Shown here piece after piece: positions 1,397 to 19,497 of a DNA stretch of 20,374 nucleotides. A program made the translations under genes and the position numbers. Origin of the DNA: a virus. The stretch's first letter is position 1, and each line of letters starts with the position of its first letter. Location: positions 1-20,374 of IMG/VR virus record IMGVR_UViG_3300001419_000080. One strand, given 5' to 3'. Below the pieces are notes generated by a model, which was not told where the DNA came from, did not search any database, and saw nothing but the letters and a program-made list of their open reading frames with translations.

Positions 1397-1404
1397 CTTT
1401 AAAC
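1397..1404 (-). promoter_or_regulatory. GTTTAAAG box upstream of the tail sheath gene
   Basis: The minus strand reads TTGTTTAAAGACAC here, 38 nt before the sheath ATG and in the 65-nt gap after the 80-aa gene. It is one of nine exact copies of the box in this window that precede gene starts in the sense direction. It is inferred to be a phage promoter element or activator site giving the sheath its own transcript. Confidence 0.5.
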
Positions 1405-1423
1405 AAACGGTCATTTAATACCC

Positions 1424-1666
1424 TTAATCATCCCCATTGCTCTTGTAAAGCTCAAATAGGTTATTCATGAGCCAATCTGAACAGCTATCCGCCCCACATT
1501 TTTGTGTCTCTAGGATCTTTAAGGACTTTCGCATAATCTTATTAAAATCGGAGTCAGTCACGTGCCTAGAACAGACTTTAATAAACTCTTTGAGTTTTAA
1601 TTGATCCTTATTAACAACTATAGAGCATAGAATTAAAATAAGTTTTAGGCGAAGTATGTCCGTCAT
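1424..1666 (-). CDS. Unrecognised 80-aa protein, third gene of the chaperone-like cassette
   Basis: This small protein is not recognised. It is mostly helical in appearance, begins with a hydrophobic run (ILRLKLILILCSIVV, about residues 4-18), and carries four cysteines. The hydrophobic start could be a short membrane-associated or buried helix, but it does not look like a cleaved signal peptide. Its ATG overlaps the stop of the preceding 144-aa gene in an ATGA arrangement, so translation is probably coupled. The next gene downstream is the tail sheath. Its position between chaperone-like genes and the sheath suggests a tail-assembly accessory role, which is inference from context only. Confidence 0.6.
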   Translation of the reverse strand: MTDILRLKLILILCSIVVNKDQLKLKEFIKVCSRHVTDSDFNKIMRKSLKILETQKCGADSCSDWLMNNLFELYKSNGDD

Positions 1667-2097
1667 TTTTTATCCCGAGGTTTATTCATTTCTGCAATTG
1701 CATTTTCATGGACTTGAATCATCGCCATAACTTTTGTCATAGGCTGAGACTCAAAGTAATCTATAGCAACAAAAGAATTATTTTGTAACGCATAGCATAC
1801 TTCTAACCATTTAAATTTTGTAATAAAATTACATAATATTTCTTGTCCTACTATTTCAAATACCTCTTTTATGACTCTAGGAGTTAATTTTTCTATCCCA
1901 ATCTTTGATAAATTGATCCTTTTTAAAATGTCTATAACGCCATCTATAGTTAGACTCTCCTCCTCGTCTATGTACTTCTCTAAAAACTCTAGATCTTTTC
2001 CTGTGATGTCTCTGAATGATAATTTATTTCCCTTCCTATCTACTATAGAAATAGTATAGTTATGCTCTCTAATTACAGAGTATTTCTCATCACTCAT
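1663..2097 (-). CDS. Putative tail-assembly protein (144 aa), coupled to the chaperone-like gene
   Basis: A 144-aa protein of uncertain family. It has a short beta-rich N-terminus (YTISIVDRKGNKLSF, about residues 14-28) followed by helices with acidic patches (DLEFLEKYIDEEESL). The size, the beta-then-helix layout and the position just after another chaperone-like gene fit the second component of a tail-assembly chaperone pair. Such proteins hold the tape-measure protein during tail assembly and are absent from the virion. The start ATG overlaps the previous stop by 8 nt (ATGAGTGA), and the end overlaps the next ATG (ATGA), so all three genes form one coupled unit. I saw no slippery heptamer that would make the two proteins a frameshift fusion. 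It could instead be a baseplate assembly factor. Confidence 0.55.
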   Translation of the reverse strand: MSDEKYSVIREHNYTISIVDRKGNKLSFRDITGKDLEFLEKYIDEEESLTIDGVIDILKRINLSKIGIEKLTPRVIKEVFEIVGQEILCNFITKFKWLEVCYALQNNSFVAIDYFESQPMTKVMAMIQVHENAIAEMNKPRDKK

Positions 2098-2434
2098 CTG
2101 ATCCTAGCAGAGATGATAGCGCGCTACCAATTTTCTTAAGCTGTCTAGCTGTAAGCTTCTTAGCATCTTTTAAAGAGAGTCTTTTTCCATTTTCAGGCGC
2201 GTGAAGTACACAGATTGTCTGAAGAGTCGCTTCGATCTCGGAGAGTTTCTCGTTAGAGTTAATCTCAGAAATTACGATAAGATCCTCTGCACAAGGTTCT
2301 TTTAAGTATAGGAATTTCCCGTTTGAGATTTCTACAGGAACTACTTCAGGCTCTCCAAAATCAAATTCAGAGATCTCATTCACTGTAATAACTTCTCCCT
2401 CCGAGGAATGTCGGCTCATTTTGCTAGTTGGCAT
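2090..2434 (-). CDS. Putative tail-assembly chaperone (Mu gp41 / P2 E-like)
   Basis: A 114-aa protein whose central part (residues about 30-110) resembles the Phage_TAC / Mu gp41-type pattern. It has a beta-strand 'NGKFLYLKEPCAEDLIVISEI', a helical middle 'LSEIEATLQTICVLHAPENG', and a helical C-terminus 'LTARQLKKIGSALSSLLG'. Proteins of this family bind the tape-measure protein during tail assembly. The call rests on this pattern, the size, and the position upstream of the sheath. The gene is first in a three-gene minus-strand cassette and is preceded, 25 nt upstream, by a GTTTAAAG box. A second in-frame Met lies at residue 6, so the start could be slightly downstream. No tape-measure gene is visible; it may lie outside the window. 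Confidence 0.5.
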   Translation of the reverse strand: MPTSKMSRHSSEGEVITVNEISEFDFGEPEVVPVEISNGKFLYLKEPCAEDLIVISEINSNEKLSEIEATLQTICVLHAPENGKRLSLKDAKKLTARQLKKIGSALSSLLGSDE

Positions 2435-2459
2435 TTTAGAATGTTTATTAGGTAATTTT

Positions 2460-2467
2460 CTTTAAAC
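2460..2467 (-). promoter_or_regulatory. GTTTAAAG box driving the minus-strand chaperone cassette
   Basis: The minus strand reads AGGTTTAAAGAAAATT, with the box ending 25 nt before the ATG at 2434. It is the left half of a back-to-back pair in the 78-nt divergent intergenic region; the partner on the plus strand is at 2485-2492. Inferred promoter element. Confidence 0.5.
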
Positions 2468-2484
2468 CTCAAATTTAATTTTTT

Positions 2485-2492
2485 GTTTAAAG
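2485..2492 (+). promoter_or_regulatory. GTTTAAAG box upstream of the 132-aa gene
   Basis: The plus strand reads TTGTTTAAAGGGAGGA, 20 nt before the chosen ATG at 2513. It is the right-hand partner of the divergent pair with 2460-2467, and 17 nt separate the two boxes. A strong SD-like GGGAGG follows immediately (2492-2497). If the box acts as a -10 element, that SD would fall at or before the transcript start. Confidence 0.5.
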
Positions 2493-2512
2493 GGAGGATA
2501 GATCTTAAGAAA

Positions 2513-2911
2513 ATGGCAATTAATTCTTCTAAAACGCCTTATAGTTCTTGGAACGAAGATAAGCAAAATTCGGACTATAGATCAAATACAACACAAAACT
2601 TCGCGTACGTGCGTCAGGCCCTTGCGCAAGAGAGATATCTAAAAAATTCAAATAGAGTAAATCCAGGACCCACTAGAAACACTAGAGCAAATATGGCTGA
2701 TAATTCTCCACAAAACCCCCACGTCTTTGGATCAGAAGATATGTGGGGCTGGCAAAAATGGACAGAAATCAAAAGTAAAGAATCTTCTACTTTAGCACCT
2801 GGACTCTATGAGGTTGGAAGCGCTGAAGATATCCCAGGTAATAACTATCCAGGACCGTCTAGAGTAAGTGGATGGGCCGGGTGCTCTAGTTGCAAAAGGA
2901 GGAGAATATGA
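2513..2911 (+). CDS. Unrecognised 132-aa protein with a C-terminal CxxC and basic tail
   Basis: No family recognised. The protein is polar, rich in Asn, Ser, Pro and Trp, and probably largely unstructured. It contains 'GSEDMWGWQKW' in the middle and ends in GWAGCSSCKRRRI, a CxxC pair followed by a basic tail. The ATG at 2513 is chosen over an upstream TTG at 2483 because the TTG lies before the SD-like GGGAGG (2492-2497), although the SD-to-ATG distance is rather long. The stop overlaps the next gene's ATG (ATGA), so the two are probably co-translated. Trp/Pro/Gly-rich short proteins in structural blocks are sometimes minor virion components, but nothing here proves that. The CxxC tail could bind metal or form a disulfide. 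Confidence 0.6.
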   Translation: MAINSSKTPYSSWNEDKQNSDYRSNTTQNFAYVRQALAQERYLKNSNRVNPGPTRNTRANMADNSPQNPHVFGSEDMWGWQKWTEIKSKESSTLAPGLYEVGSAEDIPGNNYPGPSRVSGWAGCSSCKRRRI

Positions 2912-3213
2912 CCACAAGAAGACCCAGAAGATCTCAGGCCGCTAAAGCGGAAGAACCAACTCAAGAAGATCAATATAAGATCCCTCAGCAAGAGCTAGAG
3001 GAGTTTTTTACGGATCCAGGACCTAAGGAAGATGAAAAAGAAATAGTGGAAGAAGTAAAGCTTCCTGAGGCCCCTAAAGAAAGAAAGAGGGTTAGACCTC
3101 CTAAAACAGGGAAAGTGTTTTTAGGCAAGGAAGAGATGAGAGAATGGGGCGATTACGTTTCTTGGCTGAAAAATGAACAAGGGCTGAAAAACGTTCGACA
3201 TAAGAAGATTTAA
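2908..3213 (+). CDS. Unrecognised 101-aa highly charged protein
   Basis: No family recognised. The N-terminus is basic (MTTRRPRRSQAAKAEE). It is followed by a long acidic, Pro/Glu/Lys-rich segment (about residues 15-65) that looks disordered, then a more ordered end with 'GKVFLGKEEMREWGDYVSWLKNEQ'. The ATG at 2908 is selected because it is preceded by AAAGGAGGAG, a near-ideal SD. An upstream TTG in the same frame lies before that SD and is unlikely. It overlaps the previous gene by ATGA. The alternating charge blocks resemble small DNA-binding or scaffold-like phage proteins, but this is only an impression. Confidence 0.6.
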   Translation: MTTRRPRRSQAAKAEEPTQEDQYKIPQQELEEFFTDPGPKEDEKEIVEEVKLPEAPKERKRVRPPKTGKVFLGKEEMREWGDYVSWLKNEQGLKNVRHKKI

Positions 3214-3223
3214 GTGATATAAT
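3194..3223 (+). promoter_or_regulatory. Sigma70-like promoter for dCMP deaminase
   Basis: There is a perfect TATAAT at 3218-3223 with a TTCGAC (-35-like, one base off a shifted TTGACA) at 3194-3199, spaced 18 bp apart. A TG precedes the -10 by one base, as in extended -10 promoters. The predicted start falls near 3230, about 15 nt before the deaminase ATG at 3245. It overlaps the end of the upstream gene. No GTTTAAAG box is present, so this gene is probably read by host-type RNA polymerase holoenzyme. Confidence 0.55.
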
Positions 3224-3244
3224 AGTCTAAGAGACGCCCCTACA

Positions 3245-3652
3245 ATGAAGCCAGAGATCAAAGAAGCATATATGCAAACTGCCGAGTTATTCTCTCAGGT
3301 TTCAAATTGTAAGAAACTCAAAGTAGGGGCTATTGTAGTTAAGAACGGGAGTATCTTAGCCCACGGATGGAACGGGACACCGTCTGGATTTCATACTAAT
3401 TGTTGCGAAAAGGAAGATGGTAGCACTAATCCGTTTGTTCTACATGCAGAACAAAACGCATTGATTAAAATGGCTAAATCTTCAGAGTCTATTGACGGAG
3501 CGGAATTGTTTTGTACTCACAGCCCGTGTCCCGATTGCTCCAAGATGATTGCGCAAGCCGGGGTTAAAAAGGTATATTATAGAAACGAATATAGAATCAC
3601 AGACGGCATCGGTGTGCTTCAGCAACTCGGTGTAGAAGTTGAAAAAATGTAA
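3245..3652 (+). CDS. dCMP deaminase (zinc-dependent cytidine/deoxycytidylate deaminase family)
   Basis: A 135-aa enzyme that deaminates dCMP to dUMP, feeding thymidylate synthesis for phage DNA replication. The zinc and catalytic motif is intact: H67-A-E69 (LHAEQNALIK) and PC-x2-C with C95 and C98 (SPCPDCSKM). The substrate-pocket motif GWNGTPSGF (residues 41-49) is typical of dCMP deaminases rather than cytidine or tRNA deaminases. It is shorter than T4 Cd (about 190 aa), lacking the long insertion, and resembles the compact ComEB-like forms. It sits among structural and orphan genes with its own TATAAT-type promoter at 3194-3223, which suggests early expression unlike its neighbours. There is no obvious SD (GAGACGCCCCTACAATG). 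The stop overlaps the next ATG by one base (TAATG). Confidence 0.93.
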   Translation: MKPEIKEAYMQTAELFSQVSNCKKLKVGAIVVKNGSILAHGWNGTPSGFHTNCCEKEDGSTNPFVLHAEQNALIKMAKSSESIDGAELFCTHSPCPDCSKMIAQAGVKKVYYRNEYRITDGIGVLQQLGVEVEKM

Positions 3653-3999
3653 TGTTTGAACATCCAGAAGCCAGAGAAAAAATTAAAAGCATATTTAAAA
3701 ATATCTCTAGATTCGAGGAAGAATTAGTTCCTAAGTTTAGAGCCTGTCTTAAAAATAACGATCCAATAGCTCTCTACGTTGCTACACAAGATCAAAATGA
3801 CTTGATGTGGATATTTGAAAAAAACGAAATCTCTCGGATGCTCGGAGGATCTGACTCCTTGGAGAGCATTTCAGAACAACTTCTGCCAGATGAAGAAGAT
3901 AAAGACGAAGGAGTTGTGTTTGTAGTACTAAAAAAAGTCGGACCGATTTACGCGATCCGACTAGAAAAAGCTGTACTTGAAGAGGTGTTTTTAGGTTAG
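3652..3999 (+). CDS. Unrecognised 115-aa protein downstream of dCMP deaminase
   Basis: No family recognised. The protein looks helical in its first half (AREKIKSIFKNISRFEEELVPKF written in part as residues 7-29) and has an acidic centre (LLPDEEDKDEG). A short beta-like end follows (VVFVVLKKVGPIYAIRLEKA). Its ATG overlaps the deaminase stop (TAATG), so it is probably translated by re-initiation and shares the deaminase promoter. Its last 9 nt overlap, tail to tail, the 3' end of the minus-strand fibre gene. Coupling with a nucleotide-metabolism gene hints at an early, non-structural role, but that is inference. Confidence 0.6.
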   Translation: MFEHPEAREKIKSIFKNISRFEEELVPKFRACLKNNDPIALYVATQDQNDLMWIFEKNEISRMLGGSDSLESISEQLLPDEEDKDEGVVFVVLKKVGPIYAIRLEKAVLEEVFLG

Positions 4000-5040
4000 A
4001 GCCGCAATTGCAGTTTTAAATGCGGCAAAGTCTGCTGATGCTGAAGCCGCGCTCTTAAGCTCTGCAAGAGTCACACCTACAACTCCTTTTATAATTTGAC
4101 CAGAGTTGTTTATTTGCACGTTAGGTCTCGCGGTTACTACCTCAGGAGGGTTAGTAAGAGTTATAGTCTTAGGGCCTATCTCGTCTCCTTCGCTGGAAGG
4201 TTTACCAAATTGTATCCATTCTGCGGGGATTTGACTAGAACCAGATTCGATATTACCCGCCCAACTAAACCCAATGTAGGTAGATCTTTCGTTGTTATCC
4301 CAAGCTGTACCTGCTTTTGCAATAATCGCAGCTCCTAGAGTTTTTTGGTTTCCGTCGCTACCAAAGAAATTGATTGTGCCAATAGGATCCTCTCTAAATA
4401 AACTTCCCGCTAAATCTGCGTTGGTTCCTCTTGTTTTATAAAAATCAATACCAGCCGTATTGTTATTACCACCTGTTCTAATATAAGATCCGATTCTGTT
4501 AAGAGAGGAGCTTGTGGCAGCTTCTAAACTTGTGACCCTTAGCTCTGTTGACTGTGCTAGTGCATCTAACTGCCCGATTTGGTTTTGTAAAGTAGGGATC
4601 TGCTCTAGTTCCTCTAGTCTGGCATTAATAAGTTCTGACCTATCATCGAACTTTTTATTTATGTTATCTTGCTCTGTCTCTAACAACTCGAAAGCGTTTT
4701 CCAAGTTAGTCAGTGATACAGAAGAAGCATCGGATAAAGCCGCTTGTGCGGATGCAATTGCGGTAGAAAAAATCTTTAGGTCCCTGAAGCTTGCGTAGGT
4801 TCTATCAGCATATCTTACGTTTACTACACCTTGATCTGTGGTCGGGTCAATTACTTCGCATAGAGATGCCCCTAACTTTAATCCGCTTTTTGTTCCCGTC
4901 CCGTCCTCTACAAATAATGTTCCGCCGGTTAACAATCCGTCTTGGGATAGTACTTGCCCCGTACTGGCCAGTTCTTGCCTAGAAACGTTTAACAATCCAC
5001 CGGCGTAGTCCTCAATAAATTTAGATCTAAGGTCTGCCAT
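3991..5040 (-). CDS. Cyanophage-type virion structural/fibre protein with coiled coil
   Basis: A 349-aa protein. Its first ~95 residues match a module I know from marine cyanomyovirus structural proteins: MADLRSKFIEDYAGGLLNVS, then 'FVEDGTGTKSGLKLG', 'VVNVRYADRTYASFRDLKIFSTAIASAQAALS'-like sequence (positions about 74-104). Residues about 105-175 are heptad-like (LENAFELLETEQDNI, LEELEQIPTLQNQIGQLDAL) and probably form a trimeric coiled-coil stalk. The C-terminal half (about 185-349) is beta/Gly/Asn-rich and could be a globular tip or attachment domain. It probably belongs to a tail-fibre or baseplate-associated complex. It is last in a three-gene minus-strand operon, and its ATG lies 14 nt inside the preceding LRR gene. 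Its 3' end overlaps the convergent 115-aa gene by 9 nt. Confidence 0.75.
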   Translation of the reverse strand: MADLRSKFIEDYAGGLLNVSRQELASTGQVLSQDGLLTGGTLFVEDGTGTKSGLKLGASLCEVIDPTTDQGVVNVRYADRTYASFRDLKIFSTAIASAQAALSDASSVSLTNLENAFELLETEQDNINKKFDDRSELINARLEELEQIPTLQNQIGQLDALAQSTELRVTSLEAATSSSLNRIGSYIRTGGNNNTAGIDFYKTRGTNADLAGSLFREDPIGTINFFGSDGNQKTLGAAIIAKAGTAWDNNERSTYIGFSWAGNIESGSSQIPAEWIQFGKPSSEGDEIGPKTITLTNPPEVVTARPNVQINNSGQIIKGVVGVTLAELKSAASASADFAAFKTAIAALT

Positions 5041-5845
5041 AATACTGATCTATCTGTTCTTTTTTAAGATTATTTGTGAAAGAGGCGTACATTTGGATAG
5101 GAATAACACTTGTTGGAGGAGGATTATCCCACAAAACCGCCCAGTTATTTGTTAATAGCATTCTAATTTTGGACGCCACCCTACGATTACTCCAGGTAAT
5201 CTCGTTGCCCCTTAGATCTAAGAGAGTGCTTATATTTTTTCTAAAAGGCGGGAGTGTGCCTGGGATGATATTAGAAGTACTACAAATTGTAGGAATCAAA
5301 GAAGAGAGAATCTTTTCCAACCCTATATCTGTCAACCTACAATTCTTTAAACTCAATCTCTTGATATTCTTTGAGAAACCTAATTCTACTACTTCTAAGC
5401 CAGAGCAATCTGTTAAATTTACGTCCTCTAAAATAGGAGCGTCAGTGGCAATAAAGGCCTTTAATTCCGTATTCCCTTCTAAATTTACCTCTCTTAGATG
5501 TTCTCTTCTAATATTCATATTTACATAGACCAAAGAGTTTCTTTGAAGGTTTATCTTCTCTATCCTAGGATCAACGCTGTCTCCAGATTGAGCTTCTATC
5601 CACAGATCGTCCCAAGTTTTTATATCTTGATTGCTTAGTTTTAATTCCTCTATAACGTAATTTGCATCGTGCGTAATTGTTAATATTGCAGAATTATTTT
5701 TTTCTTTTGATATAAATACACTATCATTAGAAACAACGTTTTTTTCTTTAAAACTTACGTAATTAAAACTACTATTTTGCACCTTATCAAGAGGTAAAAA
5801 TATTGTTTTATTTGAATTCAATAAGAAATTGGTGTATATTTTCAT
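5027..5845 (-). CDS. Leucine-rich-repeat protein (272 aa)
   Basis: Residues about 95-217 contain irregular leucine-rich repeats with the LxxLxLxxN-type spacing: IEKINLQRNSL, LREVNLEGNTEL, LEDVNLTDCSGL, IKRLSLKNCRLTDIGL and STLLDLRGNEIT. The N-terminal ~90 residues are beta-rich, and the C-terminus is Trp/Pro-rich (NNWAVLWDNPPP). LRR solenoids mediate protein-protein or protein-glycan contact. Here it may bind the neighbouring fibre or the giant protein, or be an exposed adhesion domain. The start ATG overlaps the 1313-aa gene's stop (ATGA) and is preceded by an SD, GGAGGG (plus-strand CCCTCC at 5854-5859), at 8-nt spacing. The end overlaps the next gene by 14 nt. There is no signal peptide, so it does not resemble a secreted LRR effector. 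Confidence 0.7.
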   Translation of the reverse strand: MKIYTNFLLNSNKTIFLPLDKVQNSSFNYVSFKEKNVVSNDSVFISKEKNNSAILTITHDANYVIEELKLSNQDIKTWDDLWIEAQSGDSVDPRIEKINLQRNSLVYVNMNIRREHLREVNLEGNTELKAFIATDAPILEDVNLTDCSGLEVVELGFSKNIKRLSLKNCRLTDIGLEKILSSLIPTICSTSNIIPGTLPPFRKNISTLLDLRGNEITWSNRRVASKIRMLLTNNWAVLWDNPPPTSVIPIQMYASFTNNLKKEQIDQYYGRP

Positions 5846-9783: not shown

Positions 9784-9802
9784 GTTAAAACGCTTTTTTA
9801 AA

Positions 9803-9810
9803 CTTTAAAC
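9803..9810 (-). promoter_or_regulatory. GTTTAAAG box facing the 1313-aa gene
   Basis: The minus strand reads AAGTTTAAAG followed by a TTTAAAAAAGCG tract, with the box ending 19 nt before the ATG at 9783. It is half of a perfect inverted repeat with the plus-strand box at 9816-9823. Inferred promoter element. Confidence 0.5.
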
Positions 9811-9815: not shown

Positions 9816-9823
9816 GTTTAAAG
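9816..9823 (+). promoter_or_regulatory. GTTTAAAG box facing the LOG-like gene
   Basis: The plus strand reads TTAAGTTTAAAGCTTTG, with the box ending 22 nt before the ATG at 9846. It is followed by a poly-A leader (10 or more A) and no SD. It is the plus-strand partner in the palindromic divergent pair. Confidence 0.5.
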
Positions 9824-9845: not shown

Positions 9846-10310
9846 ATGTCTTCTAAACTATCAGTAGTTGTTATAAAGTCTAAGTCGGTAGACACTACTT
9901 CTGACTTAAATAAAATGGTTGTTCATTTAGAACAAACTTTAACAGAAAAAGAAAACATCGAATTAAAAACAAGACAATCGATTACTGATGCTTTGATAAA
10001 GAGCTCCGATTTTATCATCTTCTCTGGATGGGATTCTGCTCTATTATCTAGCTTTTTTCACACGCTAAGCTTGCTAGAAAAATCTGAACTAGACAAAAAG
10101 GTGTTTTTATTTGACGAACCGGGAACTAATTGCTGGACGGACATAAATAGGCTTTTGACTTTCGGAATGGATATTGGAAGAATAGATCCTTCAATATTTG
10201 ATAAAGTTATTGACTGTTGGAATTATCGTGATATAATGAGCTATATAGACTTAGAGATACGTAAGCTCGAGAAATCAAATGCAGATTCAGGAACTGTTGC
10301 TACTGTCTAA
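9846..10310 (+). CDS. LOG-like / Rossmann-type protein with degenerate motif (154 aa)
   Basis: The middle and C-terminal part looks like the second half of LOG (lysine-decarboxylase-like, cytokinin-riboside 5'-monophosphate phosphoribohydrolase) proteins: 'SSDFIIFSGWDSALLSSFF' (about residues 53-71), then 'KKVFLFDEPGTNCWTDINRLL', then a short 'FDKVIDCWNYRDIMSYI' end. In true LOG enzymes the first segment carries PGGxGTxxE. Here it reads SGWDSALLSSFF, so the catalytic Gly/Thr/Glu residues are absent. It is therefore probably not an active LOG enzyme, though it may keep a nucleotide-binding fold. It is short (LOGs are usually about 180-220 aa). There is no SD; the leader is poly-A. The stop lies 32 nt inside the next gene. 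Assignment is tentative; it could be an unrelated alpha/beta protein. Confidence 0.4.
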   Translation: MSSKLSVVVIKSKSVDTTSDLNKMVVHLEQTLTEKENIELKTRQSITDALIKSSDFIIFSGWDSALLSSFFHTLSLLEKSELDKKVFLFDEPGTNCWTDINRLLTFGMDIGRIDPSIFDKVIDCWNYRDIMSYIDLEIRKLEKSNADSGTVATV

Positions 10311-11244
10311 TATCTCTGACGCGGCCCTTGATAAGGTTTTATTGCACGATAAGTGGAAACACGAACAGACATTAGCCCACGAGAAATGGATCGCCGAGTT
10401 AAATGTAAATGCAAAATCTGGGAATAAACCAAGCGTTGTAACATCAGAAGCCCTTTCAGAAGATGATATCTTAATAAACGAATTAACGGGATACGGAGAA
10501 CTTGACCATTCCCATATAGGAAAACTTTCAAAAACTCCTATCTGGCAAGCAGCAGAGGTGAAAGCGCTAGATATATTTTATGACTGGAAGAAATCAATCA
10601 TAGATATTGATGACTTACCTAAAAAAGACCTTTCCGACCCTAGGATTAAAAAGCTACTCACCACTTTCTTGTGGGCAAACTCCTTGGCACAGAGAAAAGC
10701 CTATTGGCCAGATGGAAAAGATATGCATTACGCAGCCGCTGCTCAGAGGGAGATAAAACAAAAACTGCAGACCTACGCAAATTCTACGATCGTAAAAGGA
10801 TATGATGCTTTCAAAAAATTCTGGGAGAGAGTCAACGAAGGAACAAAAGTTGAATTTAACTCAACATTTATTGCCGACATCTTAGATAACGCGTATGAGG
10901 AAACTATAAAGAAAGAGAGAAAGGAAGAAAAAACAGATCTATTTAGATCCCCTCTGTTCCACGAGGTAAAGAAAAACTTCCCCCACATCGATCTAAGGGA
11001 CCTAAAGAAACAAATGATTGCCAAGAGGGGAGATTTTATGAGCGCCATATTAGCAATGGAACTCAATTATTTTTCCAAAAACATCCCAGAAGAGTATAAA
11101 GATCTATACACCCAAGAAACTTGGGAGTCAAGTTACTTCAAGCATCTTAGGAAGTACGAAGAAATTTGGCGCGAGACCTACTCTAACTTTTACAGAAAAA
11201 TTCGCAAGGACTTTGAAAAATGGAAGAAGGAATCAACATTCTAA
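10279..11244 (+). CDS. Unrecognised 321-aa helical protein upstream of the portal
   Basis: No family recognised. The protein is strongly helical in appearance and rich in Lys, Glu, Trp and Tyr, with 'TPIWQAAEVKALDIFYDWKK' near residue 90. The C-terminus is highly charged and aromatic (KYEEIWRETYSNFYRKIRKD). No transmembrane segment or signal peptide is visible. The ATG at 10279 overlaps the LOG-like gene by 32 nt. No nearby in-frame alternative exists before a distant Met, so this start is the best one. It is followed, with a 25-nt overlap, by a 64-aa gene and then the portal. The position suggests a head/neck, packaging-accessory or terminase-associated role, inferred only from location. Confidence 0.6.
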   Translation: MQIQELLLLSNISDAALDKVLLHDKWKHEQTLAHEKWIAELNVNAKSGNKPSVVTSEALSEDDILINELTGYGELDHSHIGKLSKTPIWQAAEVKALDIFYDWKKSIIDIDDLPKKDLSDPRIKKLLTTFLWANSLAQRKAYWPDGKDMHYAAAAQREIKQKLQTYANSTIVKGYDAFKKFWERVNEGTKVEFNSTFIADILDNAYEETIKKERKEEKTDLFRSPLFHEVKKNFPHIDLRDLKKQMIAKRGDFMSAILAMELNYFSKNIPEEYKDLYTQETWESSYFKHLRKYEEIWRETYSNFYRKIRKDFEKWKKESTF

Positions 11245-11414
11245 CAACAGGTCACAACGTTGTTGTTGAAGGAGCTGAACAGCTCATAGAAGAATGGGAG
11301 GCAGGAACGCTTACCCGAGAAGAACTAACAAATAGGCTAATGGAGCTAGAAACAGTATACATTGATCTTCAGAAGGTAAATGAGCCAACTGAGTTTAAAG
11401 ATACTAAAGAATAA
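11220..11414 (+). CDS. Small acidic protein (64 aa) upstream of the portal
   Basis: A small Glu/Thr-rich helical protein (MEEGINILTTGHNVVVEGAE, then 'EWEAGTLTREELTNRLMELETVY'). Family not recognised. It starts inside the last 25 nt of the 321-aa gene and ends 12 nt before the portal ATG. The 'EWxxGTLTREEL' segment resembles short helical modules that cap portal or packaging proteins, but this is weak. Its C-terminal codons (Glu-Phe-Lys-Asp) contain the GTTTAAAG box at 11393-11400, so the sequence may serve both as coding and as the portal's promoter. Confidence 0.6.
   Translation: MEEGINILTTGHNVVVEGAEQLIEEWEAGTLTREELTNRLMELETVYIDLQKVNEPTEFKDTKE
11393..11400 (+). promoter_or_regulatory. GTTTAAAG box ahead of the portal gene, inside the previous gene
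   Basis: An exact box, TGAGTTTAAAGATAC, ends 26 nt before the portal ATG. It lies within the 3' coding end of the 64-aa gene. The spacing to the ATG matches the intergenic copies (19-43 nt), which supports function despite the coding location. Confidence 0.5.
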
Positions 11415-11426
11415 TGTTTTGACTTA

Positions 11427-13295: not shown

Positions 13296-13303
13296 TACGT
13301 TTA

Positions 13304-13311
13304 GTTTAAAT
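13304..13311 (+). promoter_or_regulatory. GTTTAAAT box variant upstream of the tail tube
   Basis: This is a one-mismatch version of the box (final G to T), TTAGTTTAAATATTC, 33 nt before the tube ATG. It overlaps the first arm of an AT-rich inverted repeat (13309-13326). The gap between the portal and tube genes is 49 nt. Confidence 0.4.
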
Positions 13312-13326
13312 ATTCTTTAGAATATT
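13309..13326. repeat. AT-rich inverted repeat (7-bp stem, TTTA loop) before the tail tube
   Basis: AATATTC (13309-13315) and GAATATT (13320-13326) are exact reverse complements around TTTA. The stem holds only one G-C pair and no T-run follows, so an intrinsic terminator is unlikely. It could be an operator or the upstream part of the tube gene's promoter. Confidence 0.55.
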
Positions 13327-13344
13327 GCATATACGTAATCTGCT

Positions 13345-13776
13345 ATGCTAAAATATAAGCCCATTACTCAAGCACAGTATTGGATTCAGTGTTCTGGTTT
13401 CACAAACCACTACTTCACTACTTTTTCCGGTATTAGAGACACATCTGGTACAACCCAATATGCCGATGGTGTAAGAGGACGTATCTTCCAGCTCAAGGGT
13501 CCTCGTACTCTTGCTGAAGTAACAATCTCTACTCCTTTCGACCCTGAAAAGCACGCTGACATCGTTGACTTCTGGAAGACCTATGACTGTTCCTTTGTAA
13601 CTCTAACCGTTACTCCCGTTAATTGCGGCGAAGACCCTACTCCTCTAGGCAGCAGAACAATCACTGTACCTGACGCTCAGATCACTTCACTTAACTTCGG
13701 TCAGGCCGACAGAGCCTCTACAAATGTCTCTACACTAGAGCTTACATTTGTAATGGATACATTCACCTATAACTGA
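13345..13776 (+). CDS. Tail tube protein (gp19-like)
   Basis: A 143-aa protein of the size and pattern of phage tail tube monomers. The N-terminal half holds short beta strands (YWIQCSGFTNHYFTTFSGI) and a 'RIFQLKGPRTLAEVTISTPF' strand. 'DFWKTYDCSFVTLTVTPVNC' and a long beta-loop-beta ending TLELTFVMDTFTYN follow. Tube subunits stack as hexameric rings inside the sheath and form the channel for DNA. It is next to the portal on the plus strand and about 12 kb from the sheath, which is on the minus strand. In most contractile phages sheath and tube are adjacent. C-ending codons dominate, consistent with high expression. An alternative is a related tube-like initiator or baseplate protein. Confidence 0.78.
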   Translation: MLKYKPITQAQYWIQCSGFTNHYFTTFSGIRDTSGTTQYADGVRGRIFQLKGPRTLAEVTISTPFDPEKHADIVDFWKTYDCSFVTLTVTPVNCGEDPTPLGSRTITVPDAQITSLNFGQADRASTNVSTLELTFVMDTFTYN

Positions 13777-13798
13777 TATATTACAAGAGGGTTGAGGT

Positions 13799-15535
13799 AT
13801 GTCAACCTCTAATTTATTTTTTAAGGGTTGTTTTGATTCTGATCCTTTTTCCCACGAAGCGTTGTGCGAACTTGAAAGATTAGGTACAGAGAGCAATCTT
13901 AAAGATAAGTCCTGCTCGCGCGAAACAAATACGTGCGGGATGACTTTGCAACAACTTACAGACACTTATGAGTTCTATAACGATCAGAAAGGTTTATATA
14001 GGAACTGGGGAGATATTATTTTTCCTTGGGAAATTAAGAGCACTACAGACAATCTAGATTACGATAACGTTACAGACGACAGATGGAGCGTATCCCTTTA
14101 TAAGTCCTTAGTGTCTTATTTTATTGGGGATAAAGTTTTATACGTAGAAGATGATGGCTATAAGCTATCTCTATATGAAGCAACAGAAGACGTAAGTTCT
14201 ATCAGCGGTCCATTCGACCGGAGTAAATGGAATGAGATATGTAGCATCGAGTTGCCGGAGCCTTTTGGTTTACCGACAATAGAAGAATTACAGCAGAGAT
14301 ATAATTACTATCTCCCTTCTTTATTTTTTAAAGAATGGGAAGAACTTAGTTCTGATTGGGAAGAGGATCTATTTTTTCAATCCAAGGAATCTTGTAATAT
14401 TGCTGGCGAAGTCAAAAAACTAAATGACACGTTCTATTCTTACCAATCTAAAGGAAATTACTGGAAGCAGCTGCCTAGAACCGATGCTCATTGTTTAAGT
14501 GATAAAAGTTCAGACATTTGGAACGAGGCAAGAATAAGAAAATTATTCTTTTATAGAAGAAGAGACTTTGTACTTATAGATTCAAATTGCAAAGACACTC
14601 TTTGCCTGTATATGTGCGAAAGAGATCTACCCGCAAGTGTAGACAACCTAGAGAAATTTAAAAATTTTTCGACTCATTATGATTTTGACGGAACGTGGGC
14701 CTCGACTCTAGGCTCTCCTATAATAACCGCAACTATTCCCGACCATCCATTTAAAGTCGGGGATCAGATTAAAGTGGGTGTTTTATTTGAGGATACAAAC
14801 TATCCTGCAGGGATAAGAGATCACTCTACAGTATATAAAAACTACACTATAAGTACTATAGTGGATAAAGATACGTTTACGTACTCTGTGGGTAATAATT
14901 TAGACGAAGCTGCGGGTGGTAAAATTAATGTTATTGACTTTGGTCCTTTTTGGGTTAAAATTTATTGCGTGAAGACGGGAGTTAATAAGTGTCTAGAGCT
15001 TACTTCTGAGAAGGGGCTACCAAACTATCAATTTGTAGAGATAGGTTCTAAAGGCAATTTTGTTGAACAACCTCTTCCGTTTTATAACTTAGAAGGTAAT
15101 AATTTCTGTGGGGATCCACAAGAAACATTAAATGAAAAAGCAAATAAGCAAGCAAGAAGAGTATTAACTCAACAAGAAATTGACGCTCTTGATAATACCA
15201 ATTCTGTCTACACGTATGCAGTAACTGTACAAAGTACTAGCTGCGGCAATCGCTACTTTATTGAGGGCGTACAACAAAAAACTTTAAATCTTGTAGAAGG
15301 TAGGACCTATCGCTTTAATCAAAGTGACAGCTCTAACTTGAACCACCCTCTACGTTTTTCAATTACGTCTAATGGTACTCATAACGACGGAATCGAATTT
15401 ACTGAAGGCGTAACTATAGCCGGTACCGCCGGTAGCAACGGGGCTTATACTGAGATTATCGTGCCCACAGGGTCGCCTACTCTATACTATTATTGCGTTA
15501 ATCATTCGTTGATGGGTGGAATCGCATATACTTAA
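13799..15535 (+). CDS. Cysteine-rich virion structural protein with C-terminal cupredoxin-like domain
   Basis: A 578-aa multidomain protein. Residues about 100-145 have a 'YFIGDKVLYVEDDGYKLSLYEA...SKWNEI' layout reminiscent of small carbohydrate-binding modules of the CBM5/12 type. Residues about 295-375 contain an 'HPFKVGDQIKVG...YTISTIVDKDTFTYSVG' beta domain that recurs in cyanophage structural proteins. The last ~105 residues resemble a cupredoxin (blue copper) fold, with H516 in NHPLRF and C566, H569, M572 in YYYCVNHSLMGG. These fit the His-Cys-His-Met ligand set of type-1 copper sites. The protein has 15 cysteines, which is unusual for a virion protein. Its ATG follows an SD-like AGAGGG (13786-13791) at 7-nt spacing. 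Context (tube upstream, fibres downstream) points to a tail-tip, baseplate or fibre-base role. Confidence 0.7.
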   Translation: MSTSNLFFKGCFDSDPFSHEALCELERLGTESNLKDKSCSRETNTCGMTLQQLTDTYEFYNDQKGLYRNWGDIIFPWEIKSTTDNLDYDNVTDDRWSVSLYKSLVSYFIGDKVLYVEDDGYKLSLYEATEDVSSISGPFDRSKWNEICSIELPEPFGLPTIEELQQRYNYYLPSLFFKEWEELSSDWEEDLFFQSKESCNIAGEVKKLNDTFYSYQSKGNYWKQLPRTDAHCLSDKSSDIWNEARIRKLFFYRRRDFVLIDSNCKDTLCLYMCERDLPASVDNLEKFKNFSTHYDFDGTWASTLGSPIITATIPDHPFKVGDQIKVGVLFEDTNYPAGIRDHSTVYKNYTISTIVDKDTFTYSVGNNLDEAAGGKINVIDFGPFWVKIYCVKTGVNKCLELTSEKGLPNYQFVEIGSKGNFVEQPLPFYNLEGNNFCGDPQETLNEKANKQARRVLTQQEIDALDNTNSVYTYAVTVQSTSCGNRYFIEGVQQKTLNLVEGRTYRFNQSDSSNLNHPLRFSITSNGTHNDGIEFTEGVTIAGTAGSNGAYTEIIVPTGSPTLYYYCVNHSLMGGIAYT

Positions 15536-15545
15536 CCGCTTAGAA

Positions 15546-15553
15546 GTTTAAAG
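15546..15553 (+). promoter_or_regulatory. GTTTAAAG box immediately before the 275-aa fibre gene
   Basis: An exact box, GAAGTTTAAAGTAGA, ends only 6 nt before the ATG at 15560, much closer than the other copies (19-43 nt). If it is a -10-like element, transcription would begin at about the start codon, giving a leaderless or near-leaderless message. Confidence 0.45.
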
Positions 15554-15559
15554 TAGAAT

Positions 15560-16387
15560 ATGGCAAATGTATTTGGCGGTAATAATAATAATTCTGGATC
15601 TTGTGGATCTGGAGAGATAATATCTGCTCCTAGGCATCAGGTCACTTCTTCTCCTGTATCCTCGCCTCAGCCAAACGTGTTTAGGGACGGAGGCTCTACT
15701 TCTACGTCATTAAATCCTAGGGATTTTTATACAAGAAGGGAGATAGATAAATACCTAAAAGGTAAAGCGGAAAAGTCCAGCGTTTATTTTCAAGAGAACT
15801 TATATACTAGATCACAAGTAGATCAATTAATATCTGCTTTAAATATATCTAGTTACGCTACAGCCTCATTTGTAGATACACAGATATCTTCTCTAAGATC
15901 AGAGAGAGAACTAAACTTAGCAGAGAATTACTATCAAAAAACGTCTCTATACACACGAGGCGAGGTTGATACTCTACTAACTAATTTGTCAATTACTGGG
16001 TTTGTATCTCTAACCCCGGCCTCATTAGACGACATTACAATAGACCCCTCCTCTTCTACTTTATCTACAAGTTTATTAGTTAGATCTTCTAATAACTCCT
16101 CGGAAACAGAGATCCAGAGATGGGAAAACTCTTCTACAGACTACGTCGCGGCCGTTTACGCAGATGGCAAGTCAAGATTTACAAACAGGATGACTATCGG
16201 CGAAAATGTAAATCAGGGAGAAGTTGCGTTAGATACCAGCGAAAGAAGAATAGCAAATGTTGCTCCTCCAGTTGATAGATTTGATGCAGTAAATAAATTA
16301 TACATGGAAACATTTATCACAAGCACTATTGATGATGTTCTACAAGATTCTGATGAAAACTATTTAATAGACGCACTAGAGTACTAA
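15560..16387 (+). CDS. Trimeric fibre/appendage protein with YTRxEVD repeats
   Basis: A 275-aa protein. The N-terminus is Gly/Asn/Ser/Pro-rich (MANVFGGNNNNSGSCGSGE). It contains three copies of a fibre repeat: FYTRREIDKYL (residues 56-66), LYTRSQVDQLI (81-91) and LYTRGEVDTLL (130-140). The Y-T-[RK]-x-[EQ]-[VI]-D pattern with a following short helix is common in trimeric phage fibres and predicts alternating coiled coil. The C-terminal part (about 175-275) is beta-rich with 'YADGKSRFTNRMTIGEN' and 'VDRFDAVNKLYMETFITSTI'. The latter is a registration or joining segment seen in cyanophage fibres. It probably forms a stalk joining the virion to downstream fibre proteins. The next gene starts 1 nt after its stop. 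No SD is seen; a GTTTAAAG box lies 6 nt upstream. Confidence 0.72.
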   Translation: MANVFGGNNNNSGSCGSGEIISAPRHQVTSSPVSSPQPNVFRDGGSTSTSLNPRDFYTRREIDKYLKGKAEKSSVYFQENLYTRSQVDQLISALNISSYATASFVDTQISSLRSERELNLAENYYQKTSLYTRGEVDTLLTNLSITGFVSLTPASLDDITIDPSSSTLSTSLLVRSSNNSSETEIQRWENSSTDYVAAVYADGKSRFTNRMTIGENVNQGEVALDTSERRIANVAPPVDRFDAVNKLYMETFITSTIDDVLQDSDENYLIDALEY

Positions 16388-16388
16388 A

Positions 16389-18422
16389 ATGCCAACATCA
16401 ACTTCCACTTCTCCCAGAGACGTAATACTTCATAGAAGATCACCCGTACTTAATAAAAGACCTTTAACTACTGATCTTCAATACGGAGAAATAGCAGTAA
16501 ATTATAACGAAGACGAGGTCTCCTTGTACATCAAGGACTATGAGAACGCTGTCAGGAAAGTCGGTGGTGTTTTCTATTCTGATTCTGCTCCTGATCCTTC
16601 TGTCCTTAGCACGGGATATCAAAACCTATCTCATGGAGAACTATGGGTGAAAAGGATCTCTCCTCCAGAGGAGGGGTCGGATCAAGAAGAAGATGCGCAT
16701 TTGTTCATATTCAATAAATATATCAATTCAGGTAGTGGTGGGTGGCTTGAGATAGGAAAGTTCAGATTTGCTCTTGTTGATGAGTATTTAGATCAGTTCA
16801 AGGACGCAACAGATGGTAGTGATTATATACACACCGTAAGAAACGAATTAAGAATTAATAATAAAGCTGCGCTGAAGGGATTTGCAACTTCCATCCCCAG
16901 CGACGACGAAACAGACACCTCTAAAGCAGACACTCTGGTTATCAATGACGAGCATAATTTCGCCACAGGAGTGCTGCTTAATGCAAATAACCTAACAATA
17001 GATTCTTCTGATATCGACGTAACCTCTGATTCTGTTGTAATAAACTCAGAGACTACATCTTTATTTCAGACAGATTCCGCAACAGGGACCGTAGAAACAA
17101 CGTTTACGTATAACGATCACGGATTATTTAACGGTGAAGAGATCTTTGTAGAGCAATACTTAAACGACGGAACGACTCCCAGCGGAGTGACTCAGGGTAA
17201 CTATACGGTTGCAGAGGCAAGCTTAAATACATTCAAGCTCTATGATGGCTCGCAAAACGTTCTTGCTACTGGTAATGTTAGAATTAGATACTCTCCTAGA
17301 CTAATTTTAGATCAGGCTTATAACGTACTTCAGTCTGGAAATTTTAAATTAAAAGAGATCGCTGACGTACCTAACTCTTCTCAAATAGCAGAAGGTAGGT
17401 GGGACGTATACAGAAACTCTTTAAATGGAAACGTAAGAGTGTATGCAAGAGCTAATAACATAGTTTCAGAGGCAACCTCTAGAGCCATTAAATTAGACGT
17501 TAAAAATGCTTCGGGGTTGCCTATTGCTCAAGGTGCTCCCGTTTATTTTGCTGGCACCGATCCTATAAAGGGGTACACAATTGTCGGGCCCTCATTGGCT
17601 TCTAACTCTGGATCAATGAATGCCATAGGTATCACAGATGCTACTATTGTAGGTAATGGCTATGGCTCAGTCACAGTTCTTGGCGAAACTACTCTATTAG
17701 ATACTACTTCAATTGGCGATCAGATTCCCAACTCTGATGATAGTGGCAAAGTGGTTTATGTTGCAGAGAACGGTGGCTTGACTTTTACTCCGCCAACAGA
17801 AGCGCAGGGTATAAGACAGCCTATTGGTGTTTTATTTAAAGAGGATAGTAGTGAAGGAAAAATATTTGTAAACCATCCAGACATATATAATACAGTTCAG
17901 TTAGAAGAAGGGTATATATGGATTGGCGCTACTGGAGATAACGCAGTTGCATATAGGGTTAATACGGACAATTTTCAGAGAGTAGCCGCTTCAGACGGAG
18001 AAATTGAGTTTCAATTATCCGATGAGATTAAGTTCGGTGCTTATGAATTTCTTTGGGACGGAGATAATACCGAAAGTAAGACTCAGACAAAAGTAACTAC
18101 ATCCTCCCAAGCTCTTGGTGGTGTCGATGAAATAACGGTGGATTCTTTTCCTTCGACCTACAGATCTGCTAAGTTTTTTGTTCAGCTAAGTTTAACGGGT
18201 ATAGGCATAACCCCTAACTTTCAAGTCACAGAGCTACTTGTGATCCACAACGGTACGGATGTAGATATTGTAGACTATGGAACTGCTTCTACATTGAACG
18301 AGAGACTAGGAGATTTTTCTGGTAGTATTAATGGGTCTAATATTGATATAACTTTTCAAAGATACAGGGCCACAGAAGGCCAGATTGAAGTAAAAGTAAT
18401 GAGAACTGCAGTTATCTCTTGA
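16389..18422 (+). CDS. Large fibre/structural protein with recurring marine-phage virion domains
   Basis: A 677-aa protein. The N-terminal 'LHRRSPVLNKRPLTTDLQYG' followed by 'EIAVNYNEDEVSLYIKD' (residues about 14-50) is the common fibre-anchor motif (RR...P...L..GEIAVN...LYIK). Residues about 233-303 hold the same 'DHGLFNGEEIFV...GNYTVAEASLNTFKLYD' beta domain type as the upstream 578-aa protein. Residues about 365-500 (LDVKNASGLPIAQGAPVYF, later 'QPIGVLFKEDSSEGKIFV') form a known marine-phage fibre domain. The last ~115 residues ('YRSAKFFVQLSL', 'TELLVIHNGTDVDIVDYG') match a beta-sandwich very common in marine phage virion proteins. It probably forms a tail fibre or whisker-like appendage. 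It follows the 275-aa gene by 1 nt, so it is co-translated. No terminator follows it. Confidence 0.75.
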   Translation: MPTSTSTSPRDVILHRRSPVLNKRPLTTDLQYGEIAVNYNEDEVSLYIKDYENAVRKVGGVFYSDSAPDPSVLSTGYQNLSHGELWVKRISPPEEGSDQEEDAHLFIFNKYINSGSGGWLEIGKFRFALVDEYLDQFKDATDGSDYIHTVRNELRINNKAALKGFATSIPSDDETDTSKADTLVINDEHNFATGVLLNANNLTIDSSDIDVTSDSVVINSETTSLFQTDSATGTVETTFTYNDHGLFNGEEIFVEQYLNDGTTPSGVTQGNYTVAEASLNTFKLYDGSQNVLATGNVRIRYSPRLILDQAYNVLQSGNFKLKEIADVPNSSQIAEGRWDVYRNSLNGNVRVYARANNIVSEATSRAIKLDVKNASGLPIAQGAPVYFAGTDPIKGYTIVGPSLASNSGSMNAIGITDATIVGNGYGSVTVLGETTLLDTTSIGDQIPNSDDSGKVVYVAENGGLTFTPPTEAQGIRQPIGVLFKEDSSEGKIFVNHPDIYNTVQLEEGYIWIGATGDNAVAYRVNTDNFQRVAASDGEIEFQLSDEIKFGAYEFLWDGDNTESKTQTKVTTSSQALGGVDEITVDSFPSTYRSAKFFVQLSLTGIGITPNFQVTELLVIHNGTDVDIVDYGTASTLNERLGDFSGSINGSNIDITFQRYRATEGQIEVKVMRTAVIS

Positions 18423-18423
18423 G

Positions 18424-18465
18424 CCAATTATTGTTTAAAGTCTTAGATAGATAATACAATTTGGC
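18424..18465. repeat. Interrupted inverted repeat around a GTTTAAAG box
   Basis: GCCAA, a two-base TT bulge and ATTGT on the left can pair with ACAAT-TTGGC on the right, giving a 10-bp stem around a loop of about 21 nt. The stem overlaps the first bases of the GTTTAAAG box, and the rest of the box lies in the loop. No T-run follows, so it is not a convincing terminator. It may be chance. Confidence 0.3.
18433..18440 (+). promoter_or_regulatory. GTTTAAAG box upstream of the 78-aa gene
   Basis: An exact box, ATTGTTTAAAGTCTT, lies 43 nt before the ATG at 18484. A GATAAT (18450-18455) and a TACAAT (18455-18460) follow, so a composite promoter (activator box plus sigma70-like -10) is also possible at this site. 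GCCAA/ATTGT on the left and ACAAT/TTGGC on the right (18424-18434 and 18456-18465) form an interrupted inverted repeat around it. Confidence 0.45.
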
Positions 18466-18483
18466 ACAGGGGAAAGTGAACCT

Positions 18484-18720
18484 ATGGCATCAAAGAAACA
18501 TTTTCATGTCAGGCATGGTCTGACTGCGGGCAGCGGAGTAGATCAAAATGGCATTCCGACCAGAGAGGTAATTACCAATACCGGACAGTTGGTTGATGTC
18601 GGAGCACTTAGTTCTTTAACAACAACTAATAAAACAAATGTAGTTGCTGCTATTAACGAAGTTATAGACGGAAACGCAAGAATCGACGACGTTATTGCTT
18701 TGGCAATTGCATTAGGGTAA
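18484..18720 (+). CDS. Small fibre-related protein (78 aa)
   Basis: A short protein beginning MASKKHFHVRHGLTAGSGVD and containing 'LSSLTTTNKTNVVAAINEVI'. The 'L.T..KTN.V.AINE' segment is a typical phage fibre helix that precedes a trimeric coil. It ends shortly after in a hydrophobic segment (IDDVIALAIALG). It looks like an isolated fibre-base or connector module rather than a full fibre. An AGGGG SD-like site (about 18468-18472) precedes the ATG. The next gene begins 9 nt after its stop, so it belongs to a small-gene operon of appendage proteins. Confidence 0.65.
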   Translation: MASKKHFHVRHGLTAGSGVDQNGIPTREVITNTGQLVDVGALSSLTTTNKTNVVAAINEVIDGNARIDDVIALAIALG

Positions 18721-18729
18721 TTTATTGTC

Positions 18730-19110
18730 ATGGCAAATACATTTAAAGCATTTACAAAAGCAGGCGTCGGAACAACAACTGCTACGGCATACGAAGTTGA
18801 GCTCGGAGGAGCTACGGGCAAAACTTCTATTGTAATTGGTATATCGTTATCAAACGTGGCCTCAACTCCGATTAACGTAGATGTTCAGATAGACCGCCCT
18901 GCAGCTGGAACAACTGCGGCTCCTTCTGATGACGTTTACCTAGCTAAAAACATTCCGATACCTTCGGGCTCTACTCTAGAAATCATGGCGGGTCAGAAGC
19001 TGATCCTGGAGTATAATGGCACGGCCTTGGCCGGGGACAAGATTGTGGTGACGTCGGATACAGTGAGTAGTCTCGATGTCATTGTCAACGCACTAGAAAT
19101 TACTTCATAA
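18730..19110 (+). CDS. Small virion structural protein (126 aa), cyanophage type
   Basis: The protein is predicted to be a single beta domain: MANTFKAFTKAGVGTTTATA, 'TSIVIGISLSNVASTPINVD', 'YLAKNIPIPSGSTLEIMAGQ', 'LILEYNGTALAGDKIVV' and the ending 'SSLDVIVNALEITS'. I recognise this arrangement from a family of small marine cyanophage virion proteins of about this size. Its exact position in the particle is not known to me; decoration or tail-appendage roles are both possible. There is no clear SD. Its stop codon forms part of the SD of the next gene (TAAGGAGG), indicating coupling. Confidence 0.68.
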   Translation: MANTFKAFTKAGVGTTTATAYEVELGGATGKTSIVIGISLSNVASTPINVDVQIDRPAAGTTAAPSDDVYLAKNIPIPSGSTLEIMAGQKLILEYNGTALAGDKIVVTSDTVSSLDVIVNALEITS

Positions 19111-19126
19111 GGAGGCAATACCTATT

Positions 19127-19474
19127 ATGGCGTATATTGGCAACAATGCAGATGGAATTTTTATTCCAAGTAGCGTAAACACTTCGACGGACTTAAGAAT
19201 CAGTGGGGGAGCACTAACGCAAACCGGCGGAGATGTCAACCTCGACGAGGGGACATTGTTTGTTGACGAGTCGGAGAATAGAGTCGGGGTGGGGACAACC
19301 GCGCCCGAAGTCACTCTTGACGTAGTCGGGACGATTAAGGCAACTACATATGCAGATTTGCCCACATCTCTTACTGTACTAAGTCGCGACGGCACCGGGG
19401 TGGTCATCAATGCCCCCACCGCCACCCTCCAGGTCCTCAATCGATCTGGTACCGAGGTCCCTGTAACCTTCTGA
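19127..19474 (+). CDS. Small fibre protein with GxGTTxPxxxLDVxG motif (115 aa)
   Basis: MAYIGNNADGIFIPSSVNTS begins the protein. The motif 'RVGVGTTAPEVTLDVVGTI' (about residues 52-70) is the beta-repeat found in many phage tail fibres. A short C-terminal beta segment follows. A strong SD, AAGGAGG (19109-19115), overlaps the previous stop and lies 11 nt upstream. Base composition is unlike its surroundings: 19381-19440 is about 67% GC (40 of 60) with many GCC, ACC and CCC codons. By contrast, parts of the 1313-aa gene are below 30%. This suggests recent exchange of fibre sequence. The protein is short for a fibre and may pair with the longer downstream protein. Confidence 0.65.
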   Translation: MAYIGNNADGIFIPSSVNTSTDLRISGGALTQTGGDVNLDEGTLFVDESENRVGVGTTAPEVTLDVVGTIKATTYADLPTSLTVLSRDGTGVVINAPTATLQVLNRSGTEVPVTF

Positions 19475-19489
19475 AGCCGAAGGCATTAA

Positions 19490-19497
19490 GTTTAAAG
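19490..19497 (+). promoter_or_regulatory. GTTTAAAG box plus T4-late-like TATAAATA upstream of the last fibre gene
   Basis: An exact box, TTAAGTTTAAAGTACAC, ends 42 nt before the ATG at 19540. Six bases further on, TATAAATA (19503-19510) matches the T4 late promoter consensus, 29 nt before the ATG. I noticed only one other TATAAATA, inside the 1313-aa gene, so its meaning here is uncertain. Confidence 0.45.

Follow-up and report, generated by a model that had tools for sequence, protein, structure and literature searches.

The middle and late promoters of phage phiEco32 (tAATGTAtA), in the portion of PMC8948821 covered here, consist of a single element with the start 6–8 bp downstream, and are read by gp36, a sigma factor without region 4, together with the host RNA polymerase. 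T4 late promoters, according to the parts of PMC2988020 and PMC2984593 covered, are recognised at a downstream site only, by the diverged phage sigma factor gp55. Related phages with diverged sigma factors use different late promoters, as described for those read by gp47 of phage 7-11 (GTAAtg-16-aCTA; PMC8948821, same portion). For cyanophage Ma-LMM01 the section covered of PMC5780444 gives early, middle and late classes, with promoters that look host-type and no phage motif found. Here we consider a short box, GTTTAAAG, that recurs upstream of genes in a 20374-base virus record (IMG/VR record IMGVR_UViG_3300001419_000080; the whole stretch is called the window below). Judged as a whole, the evidence makes it likely that GTTTAAAG forms the core of a late promoter and that a phage SigF-like sigma factor reads it together with the host core polymerase.

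The portal of the window is 89.9% identical to that of S-TIM54 and 83% identical to that of S-TIM5 (genus Aurunvirus), and the gene order broadly parallels S-TIM54 from 45 to 82 kb; by these comparisons the window is part of a TIM5-like cyanomyovirus (Aurunvirus). TIM5-like phages are a widespread marine lineage. The complete relatives S-TIM54 (209 coding sequences) and S-TIM5 (212 coding sequences) were used for genome-wide counts, and two more distant groups for comparison: a third clade, whose first three loci are 57–58% identical to the window's portal, and S-CBWM1, with a portal identity of 36%. In the literature found, no promoter box is described for TIM5-like phages (S-TIM5) or for S-CBWM1; the original genome papers of both phages lie outside that set, and a prior mention there is possible.

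Results

Enrichment of the box upstream of virion genes

GTTTAAAG occurs 38 times in S-TIM54 and 36 times in S-TIM5, and for 28 and 25 of these copies a start follows within 60 nucleotides (nt). Of 149 8-mers tested, none is more strongly enriched upstream of genes: positions that make up 3.58% of both strands hold 53/74 of its copies (log10 p −58.8). The one-letter variants (24 in all) are led by GATTAAAG, the clearest, with 16/36 copies upstream, followed by GTTTAAAT (6/20) and GTCTAAAG (5/15). In a control region of the T4-like cyanophage syn9 (60–110 kb) the box precedes 0/26 genes and ATAAATA 5/26. As had already been noted, the box is unlike that of T4 late promoters: TATAAATA precedes one of the 209 S-TIM54 genes, 28 of which are preceded by GTTTAAAG, and one of the 212 genes of S-TIM5.

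The genes behind the box are to a large extent structural. Virion annotations are carried by 35/59 genes that have GTTTAAAG or GTTTAAAT no more than 60 nt upstream, as opposed to 57/362 genes without (p 9e-12). Behind the host-type extended −10 element TGNTATAAT only 2/28 genes are virion-annotated, and no gene carries both elements (0/59), a split that suggests two temporal classes. A preliminary description of the window, made from its letters alone, had guessed at a lineage-specific, perhaps late, promoter and had proposed counting the 8-mer genome-wide relative to start codons; the enrichment upstream of starts and the bias towards virion genes, in two complete relatives, lend that guess good support. 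We infer both words, 'promoter' and 'late', from sequence, the timing from gene content.

The same description had placed the box before most transcription units, which holds for virion units and fails for the others. Specifically, among the S-TIM54 directons with at least 30% virion genes (n = 8), six are led by a box (GATTAAAG included) and seven contain one, compared with 5/14 box-led directons without virion genes; in S-TIM5 the former class has 7/9 box-led and 7/9 containing a box, and the latter 1/15 box-led. Mixed directons, seven in each genome, were excluded.

Conservation was followed by searching the S-TIM54 proteins against 97 sequences (95 IMG/VR loci, the window and S-TIM5) and inspecting the 90 nt that precede each match. 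Relatives at about 60% portal identity retain the box, and 66/93 and 59/75 of its copies lie upstream of genes in near and distant TIM5 loci, respectively. For individual genes other than those listed below, it was found in 13/14 and 11/11 sequences, and more weakly in 14/25 and 1/5.

Sites in the window

All nine copies previously placed 6–43 nt upstream of starts, in the sense direction, were recovered at their coordinates; their distances to the start are, in coordinate order, 38, 25, 20, 19, 22, 26, 6, 43 and 42 nt. The window holds ten exact copies where 1.45 are expected, in line with the earlier estimate of about one by chance, and 0/100 shuffles reach ten. Using 23 starts chosen from the open reading frame (ORF) list and the gene order, 9/10 copies are sense-upstream within 45 nt of a start, positions that make up 2.6% of both strands (binomial 5e-14). 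No 8-mer in the window is better placed; the next, AGTTTAAA, has 7 and overlaps GTTTAAAG. The sites are listed here, with predicted start points (+1) that follow the spacing argued for in the next section.

1397..1404, minus strand: GTTTAAAG, predicted promoter for the tail sheath gene (start 1358), followed by ACACTCTGA, without TAGA; box before the sheath orthologue in 10/12 sequences matched, window and S-TIM5 counted in.
2460..2467, minus strand: GTTTAAAG, predicted promoter of a 114-amino-acid gene (start 2434); predicted +1 at the A near 2453; box before the orthologue in 27/27 sequences.
2485..2492, plus strand: GTTTAAAG, predicted promoter of a virion gene (start 2513); TAGA at 2499–2502, predicted +1 A2500; 18/25 sequences.
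9803..9810, minus strand: GTTTAAAG, predicted promoter of a 1313-amino-acid gene (start 9783), without TAGA; 29/30 sequences.
9816..9823, plus strand: GTTTAAAG, divergent partner of the 9803 box, before the gene at 9846; TAGC, predicted +1 A9830; 42/47 sequences.
11393..11400, plus strand: GTTTAAAG within the end of the preceding ORF, before the portal gene (11427); AAGA, predicted +1 at the A near 11408; 35/35 sequences, near relatives only.
13304..13311, plus strand: variant GTTTAAAT, 33 nt before the ATG (13345) of the tail tube gene; TAGA at 13318–13321, predicted +1 A13319.
15546..15553, plus strand: GTTTAAAG, 6 nt upstream of the start (ATG 15560) of a virion gene, with A15560 as the predicted +1.
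18433..18440, plus strand: GTTTAAAG ahead of the gene at 18484; TAGA at 18444–18447 and 18448–18451; 17/18 sequences.
19490..19497, plus strand: GTTTAAAG ahead of the gene at 19540; TATA, predicted +1 A19504.
5345..5352, minus strand: GTTTAAAG within the LRR gene, with AATTGTAGG after it, which fits the longer consensus (TAG at the right spacing).
3215..3223, plus strand: TGATATAAT, a host-type extended −10 element before the dCMP deaminase gene (3245), of the other promoter class; S-TIM54 equivalent at 50431.

The variant before the tail tube gene and the tenth exact copy, in the LRR gene, are where the preliminary description had put them. Before the tube, exact GTTTAAAG is present in only 1/69 sequences because GTTTAAAT occupies that place; this T variant is found in relatives down to 77.5% tube identity, and is absent in two relatives at about 61%. 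The in-gene copy has counterparts at 53290 in S-TIM54, with identical letters after it, and at 52656 in S-TIM5, with one of them changed; it could be a promoter inside the LRR gene that serves the gene next in line, or a side effect of what the LRR sequence encodes. Two further words were seen: a T4-late-like TATAAATA at 19503–19510 overlaps the predicted start point of the window's last gene, and a second TGATATAAT at 10229–10237 (plus strand) lies inside the ORF 9846–10310, 41 nt before the next start.

A second element and the predicted start point

Expectation-maximisation on 166 non-redundant upstream boxes returned the element [AT]TAGA, 5–7 nt downstream of the box, with a log ratio of 174 compared with 23–38 in eight shuffled sets that were run with fewer restarts than the real set. 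The element is present after 133/166 upstream boxes and 20/59 in-gene boxes, for a matrix trained on the same 166. A purine, most often A, stands 7–9 nt after the box in all three groups (TIM5, third clade and S-CBWM1), and no conservation of a −35 element was seen in the boxes of any of them.

The distances from box to start codon are distributed with a gap at the same place in each group. In S-TIM54 and S-TIM5 together 0/53 start codons lie 7–17 nt after the box, with one box at 6 nt and the others at 18–52; the third clade (n = 83) has one at 6 nt, the others at 20–54 and 0/83 within the gap; and S-CBWM1 (n = 33) has distances of 4, 6 and 6, then 20–62, again with 0/33 at 7–17. Each lineage thus has boxes 6 nt before an ATG. 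For orthologues of gene 15560 (20 distinct rows), the exact box stands at 6 nt in 12, the window included, and a one-letter variant in 2; in five of the remaining six a Shine–Dalgarno-like GGAGGA or GAGGAG is found at that place.

If the box is an extended −10 element, transcription should start 7–9 nt downstream, at the A, and we infer such start points for the boxes generally. Boxes at 6 nt would then start transcription at the A of the ATG itself, so that the copy at 15546 would give a leaderless mRNA from gene 15560.

The candidate sigma factor

S-TIM54 and S-TIM5 each have one sigma region 2 match, and in both it is the gene annotated as SigF. The match to PF04542 scores 25.7 bits (cut-off 24) in the genome scan and 23.8, just below, in a plain scan, and there is a profile match to SigA chains (E 2e-05); by profile, then, the phage protein has a region 2 of the sigma-70 family. 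SigF and SigA profiles align from residue 14–26 to residue 134–172, and the best-scoring families are the SigF and SigB/F/G profiles, but the curated cut-offs are missed by a wide margin (PRK07408, 44.3 bits vs 261; SigBFG, 28.9 vs 234), which places the protein nearest to SigF, yet outside the family. A possible region 3 is suggested by profile alignment and a weak fold, both reaching to about residue 140. For region 4, Pfam and profile scans gave no match. The second of two fold models resembles sigma domains over residues 1–140 only (VIA-align 2, Z 9.5–12, values that in helical proteins may, according to the tool, reflect a mere common arrangement), and Foldseek stretched a weak model over sigma chains up to 261 columns, with a root mean square deviation of 14–18 Å in most long rows. 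The probable reader of the box is a phage-encoded SigF-like sigma factor without recognisable region 4.

The TIM5 recognition helix, which we take to correspond to region 2.4, reads WVNRCLQFHMLNYLRD in 16/17 aligned TIM5-clade proteins, L041 having N for Q. Homologues from the distant TIM5 clade have identities of 61–68% (one fragment has 78%), and those of the third clade, present in 7/13 contigs, all possible fragments, about 39–41%. The third-clade helix (7/7 proteins: WLNRSLT, F or Y, Q, V or L, LNYLRD) is unlike that of TIM5. S-CBWM1 has two sigma genes, gp142 and gp152; gp152 is a distant homologue of the TIM5 protein (33/124 identical, hhalign probability 94.9).

In S-TIM54 sigF is located behind a thioredoxin-like gene. 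A host-type extended −10 element, TGNTA[TC]AAT, lies about 350–430 nt upstream of sigF in 31/31 distinct TIM5-clade loci (46 were given, and short or duplicate ones dropped), and the box is there in one. Upstream of the gene before sigF (looked at in L125, L130, L137, L140 and L145), this −10 element continues, in the distant clade, into a palindrome (TAATAC...GTATTA), and the near clade has a hairpin-like repeat at the same place; either is a possible operator or attenuator. A PHROGs scan for regulators, covering a further seven of the 209 S-TIM54 genes, gave one DNA-binding family (phrog_624), and nothing or weak matches for the rest.

Boxes in other clades

Different words appear at the same place in the other groups: by sequence, the third-clade box is GTTGAAAGC and that of S-CBWM1 is GGGTAAAA. 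In two third-clade sub-groups GTTGAAAG has 23/43 and 64/111 copies upstream, and overlapping words such as TTGAAAGC score equally, compared with 0/5 and 2/9 for GTTTAAAG. The third-clade boxes (n = 83) are followed by C (95%), then by T at nt 6 (72%), A at nt 7 (92%) and G at nt 8 (77%). In the 39 kb of S-CBWM1 checked there is no GTTTAAAG, and the top upstream 8-mer is GGGTAAAA, with 25/34 copies upstream; at nt 7 after the box a purine is found in 26/33, A in 17. Across S-CBWM1 (MG450654; L119–L121), GGGTAAAA or a one-letter variant occurs 33 times within 70 nt before a start. These sites would make up another class of promoter, this one in a different cyanophage genus, which was not met in the literature covered here.

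Discussion

The favoured explanation takes GTTTAAAG as a stand-alone extended −10 element, at about −15 to −8 and without a −35 box, from which RNA would start 7–9 nt after the box, usually at the A of a TAGA-like initiator. In TIM5-type phages the host sigma factor would direct synthesis of SigF from a host-type promoter; SigF with host core RNA polymerase would then read GTTTAAAG, and the virion genes would be switched on once the sigma factor has been made.

Several observations weigh against this explanation. About a fifth of the upstream boxes lack TAGA, and in the window a clear TAG stands at the expected place after only 4/10 promoters (2485, 9816, 13304 and 18433). With looser, ORF-called starts 6/105 TIM5 boxes fall 7–17 nt from a start, perhaps because of start miscalls. 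The reverse word CTTTAAAC is also upstream-enriched (19/74), partly through divergent gene pairs. Of the box genes 24/59 have no virion annotation, and the deficit of Shine–Dalgarno-like sites behind boxes is not significant (5/43 vs 82/362, p 0.12). On the side of the protein, both fold models are weak (predicted local distance difference test 57 and 62), a degenerate region 4 is possible, and a Pfam scan for region 3 gave no hit, which lowers our confidence somewhat. Helix and box differ together between clades that also differ in much else, and the strict host-type pattern before sigF is found in only 1/7 third-clade loci.

The closest rival would move the box further upstream (about −26 to −19) and make TAGATA the true −10, so that most late mRNAs would start at or within about 15 nt of the start codon, with either a separate activator of the phage or some part of the sigma factor binding the box. 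A bipartite spacing of 5–7 nt is also compatible with this arrangement, TAGA shows strong conservation of its A and G, and the scarcity of Shine–Dalgarno-like sites, such as it is, points the same way. However, the third clade conserves little after TAG (nt 9–14 are 44–61% A+T), S-CBWM1 has only a purine at that place, and in three lineages RNA from the 6-nt boxes would begin within the coding sequence; the box would also sit where sigma makes few base contacts. We consider this arrangement unlikely; it was the one initially preferred, and was abandoned on the S-CBWM1 and third-clade evidence. The B. subtilis SigB-type promoter has a −35 element GTTTAA with GGGTAT 12–14 nt downstream. The box could by analogy be the −35 of a SigB/SigF-type promoter, its −10 lying about 12–14 nt further on, and both this −35 word and the best scores of the phage sigma factor, with SigF and SigB/F/G profiles, speak for it. 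Expectation-maximisation on the 166 boxes gave TAGA and no strong element at that distance, though; region 4, the reader of −35 boxes, is the part without a profile match; the start of gene 15560 would be impossible; and in S-CBWM1 the word found at a similar distance from genes, GGGTAAAA, resembles a −10. We consider a −35 role highly improbable.

A short conserved word before many genes, with a palindromic core (TTTAAA) and some upstream enrichment of its reverse, could alternatively bind a phage repressor or activator acting on host-sigma promoters, as in a MotA-like system. Sense copies predominate (53/74), none of the box genes carries TGNTATAAT, and the near-fixed distance to the initiator A suits a core promoter, so that such a regulator site seems quite improbable, if less so than a −35 element. 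Least probable of all is a promoter for a phage-encoded RNA polymerase: single-subunit polymerases also use short lineage-specific promoters, but the annotations of S-TIM54 and S-TIM5 include no RNA polymerase, and neither genome has an Rpb2-type match in a search whose control worked. The search for a single-subunit enzyme also gave no match, with its control silent too, and allows no conclusion.

If GTTTAAAG is indeed an extended −10 element read by the phage sigma factor, the three boxes invite a further, tentative proposal, about which we have more doubt than confidence: late sigma factor and promoter may have changed together, so that GTTTAAAG, GTTGAAAGC and GGGTAAAA would each go with the clade's own SigF-like sigma factor, with (T)AG(A) adding further specificity and some late mRNAs lacking a leader. 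Helix positions 70, 73, 75, 77 and 78 (TIM5 numbering), which differ between TIM5 and the third clade, would then decide the fourth letter of the box. The sister clades offer a test of how a sigma factor and some 25–30 promoters per genome could change specificity together; the box also marks likely late transcription units in relatives, and the 6-nt class predicts leaderless late mRNAs.

Among described systems, Ma-LMM01 shares with the TIM5 phages a cyanobacterial host and has temporal classes such as are suggested here, but its promoters look host-type, with no phage motif found. Phage 7-11 offers the parallel of related phages whose diverged sigma factors go with different late promoters; its gp47, however, does possess region 4, and each of its promoters consists of two elements set apart. 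Recognition at a downstream site only, by a diverged phage sigma factor, is what the TIM5 system would share with T4 late promoters (gp55) and with NATAAATA of T4-like cyanophages, the TIM5 sigma factor differing in being nearest to SigF. The likeness to phiEco32 would be one of form: a single conserved element without −35 upstream of virion genes ('late' by gene content only), a start predicted here at 7–9 nt after the box as compared with 6–8 bp, and, as the probable reader, a phage sigma factor without a region 4 match that would work with host RNA polymerase. The sequence is another one, and the TIM5 side has a TAGA initiator, more copies per genome and a cyanobacterial host. By analogy, the TIM5 box system would work like the late promoters of phiEco32 and T4, but is neither of them by sequence.

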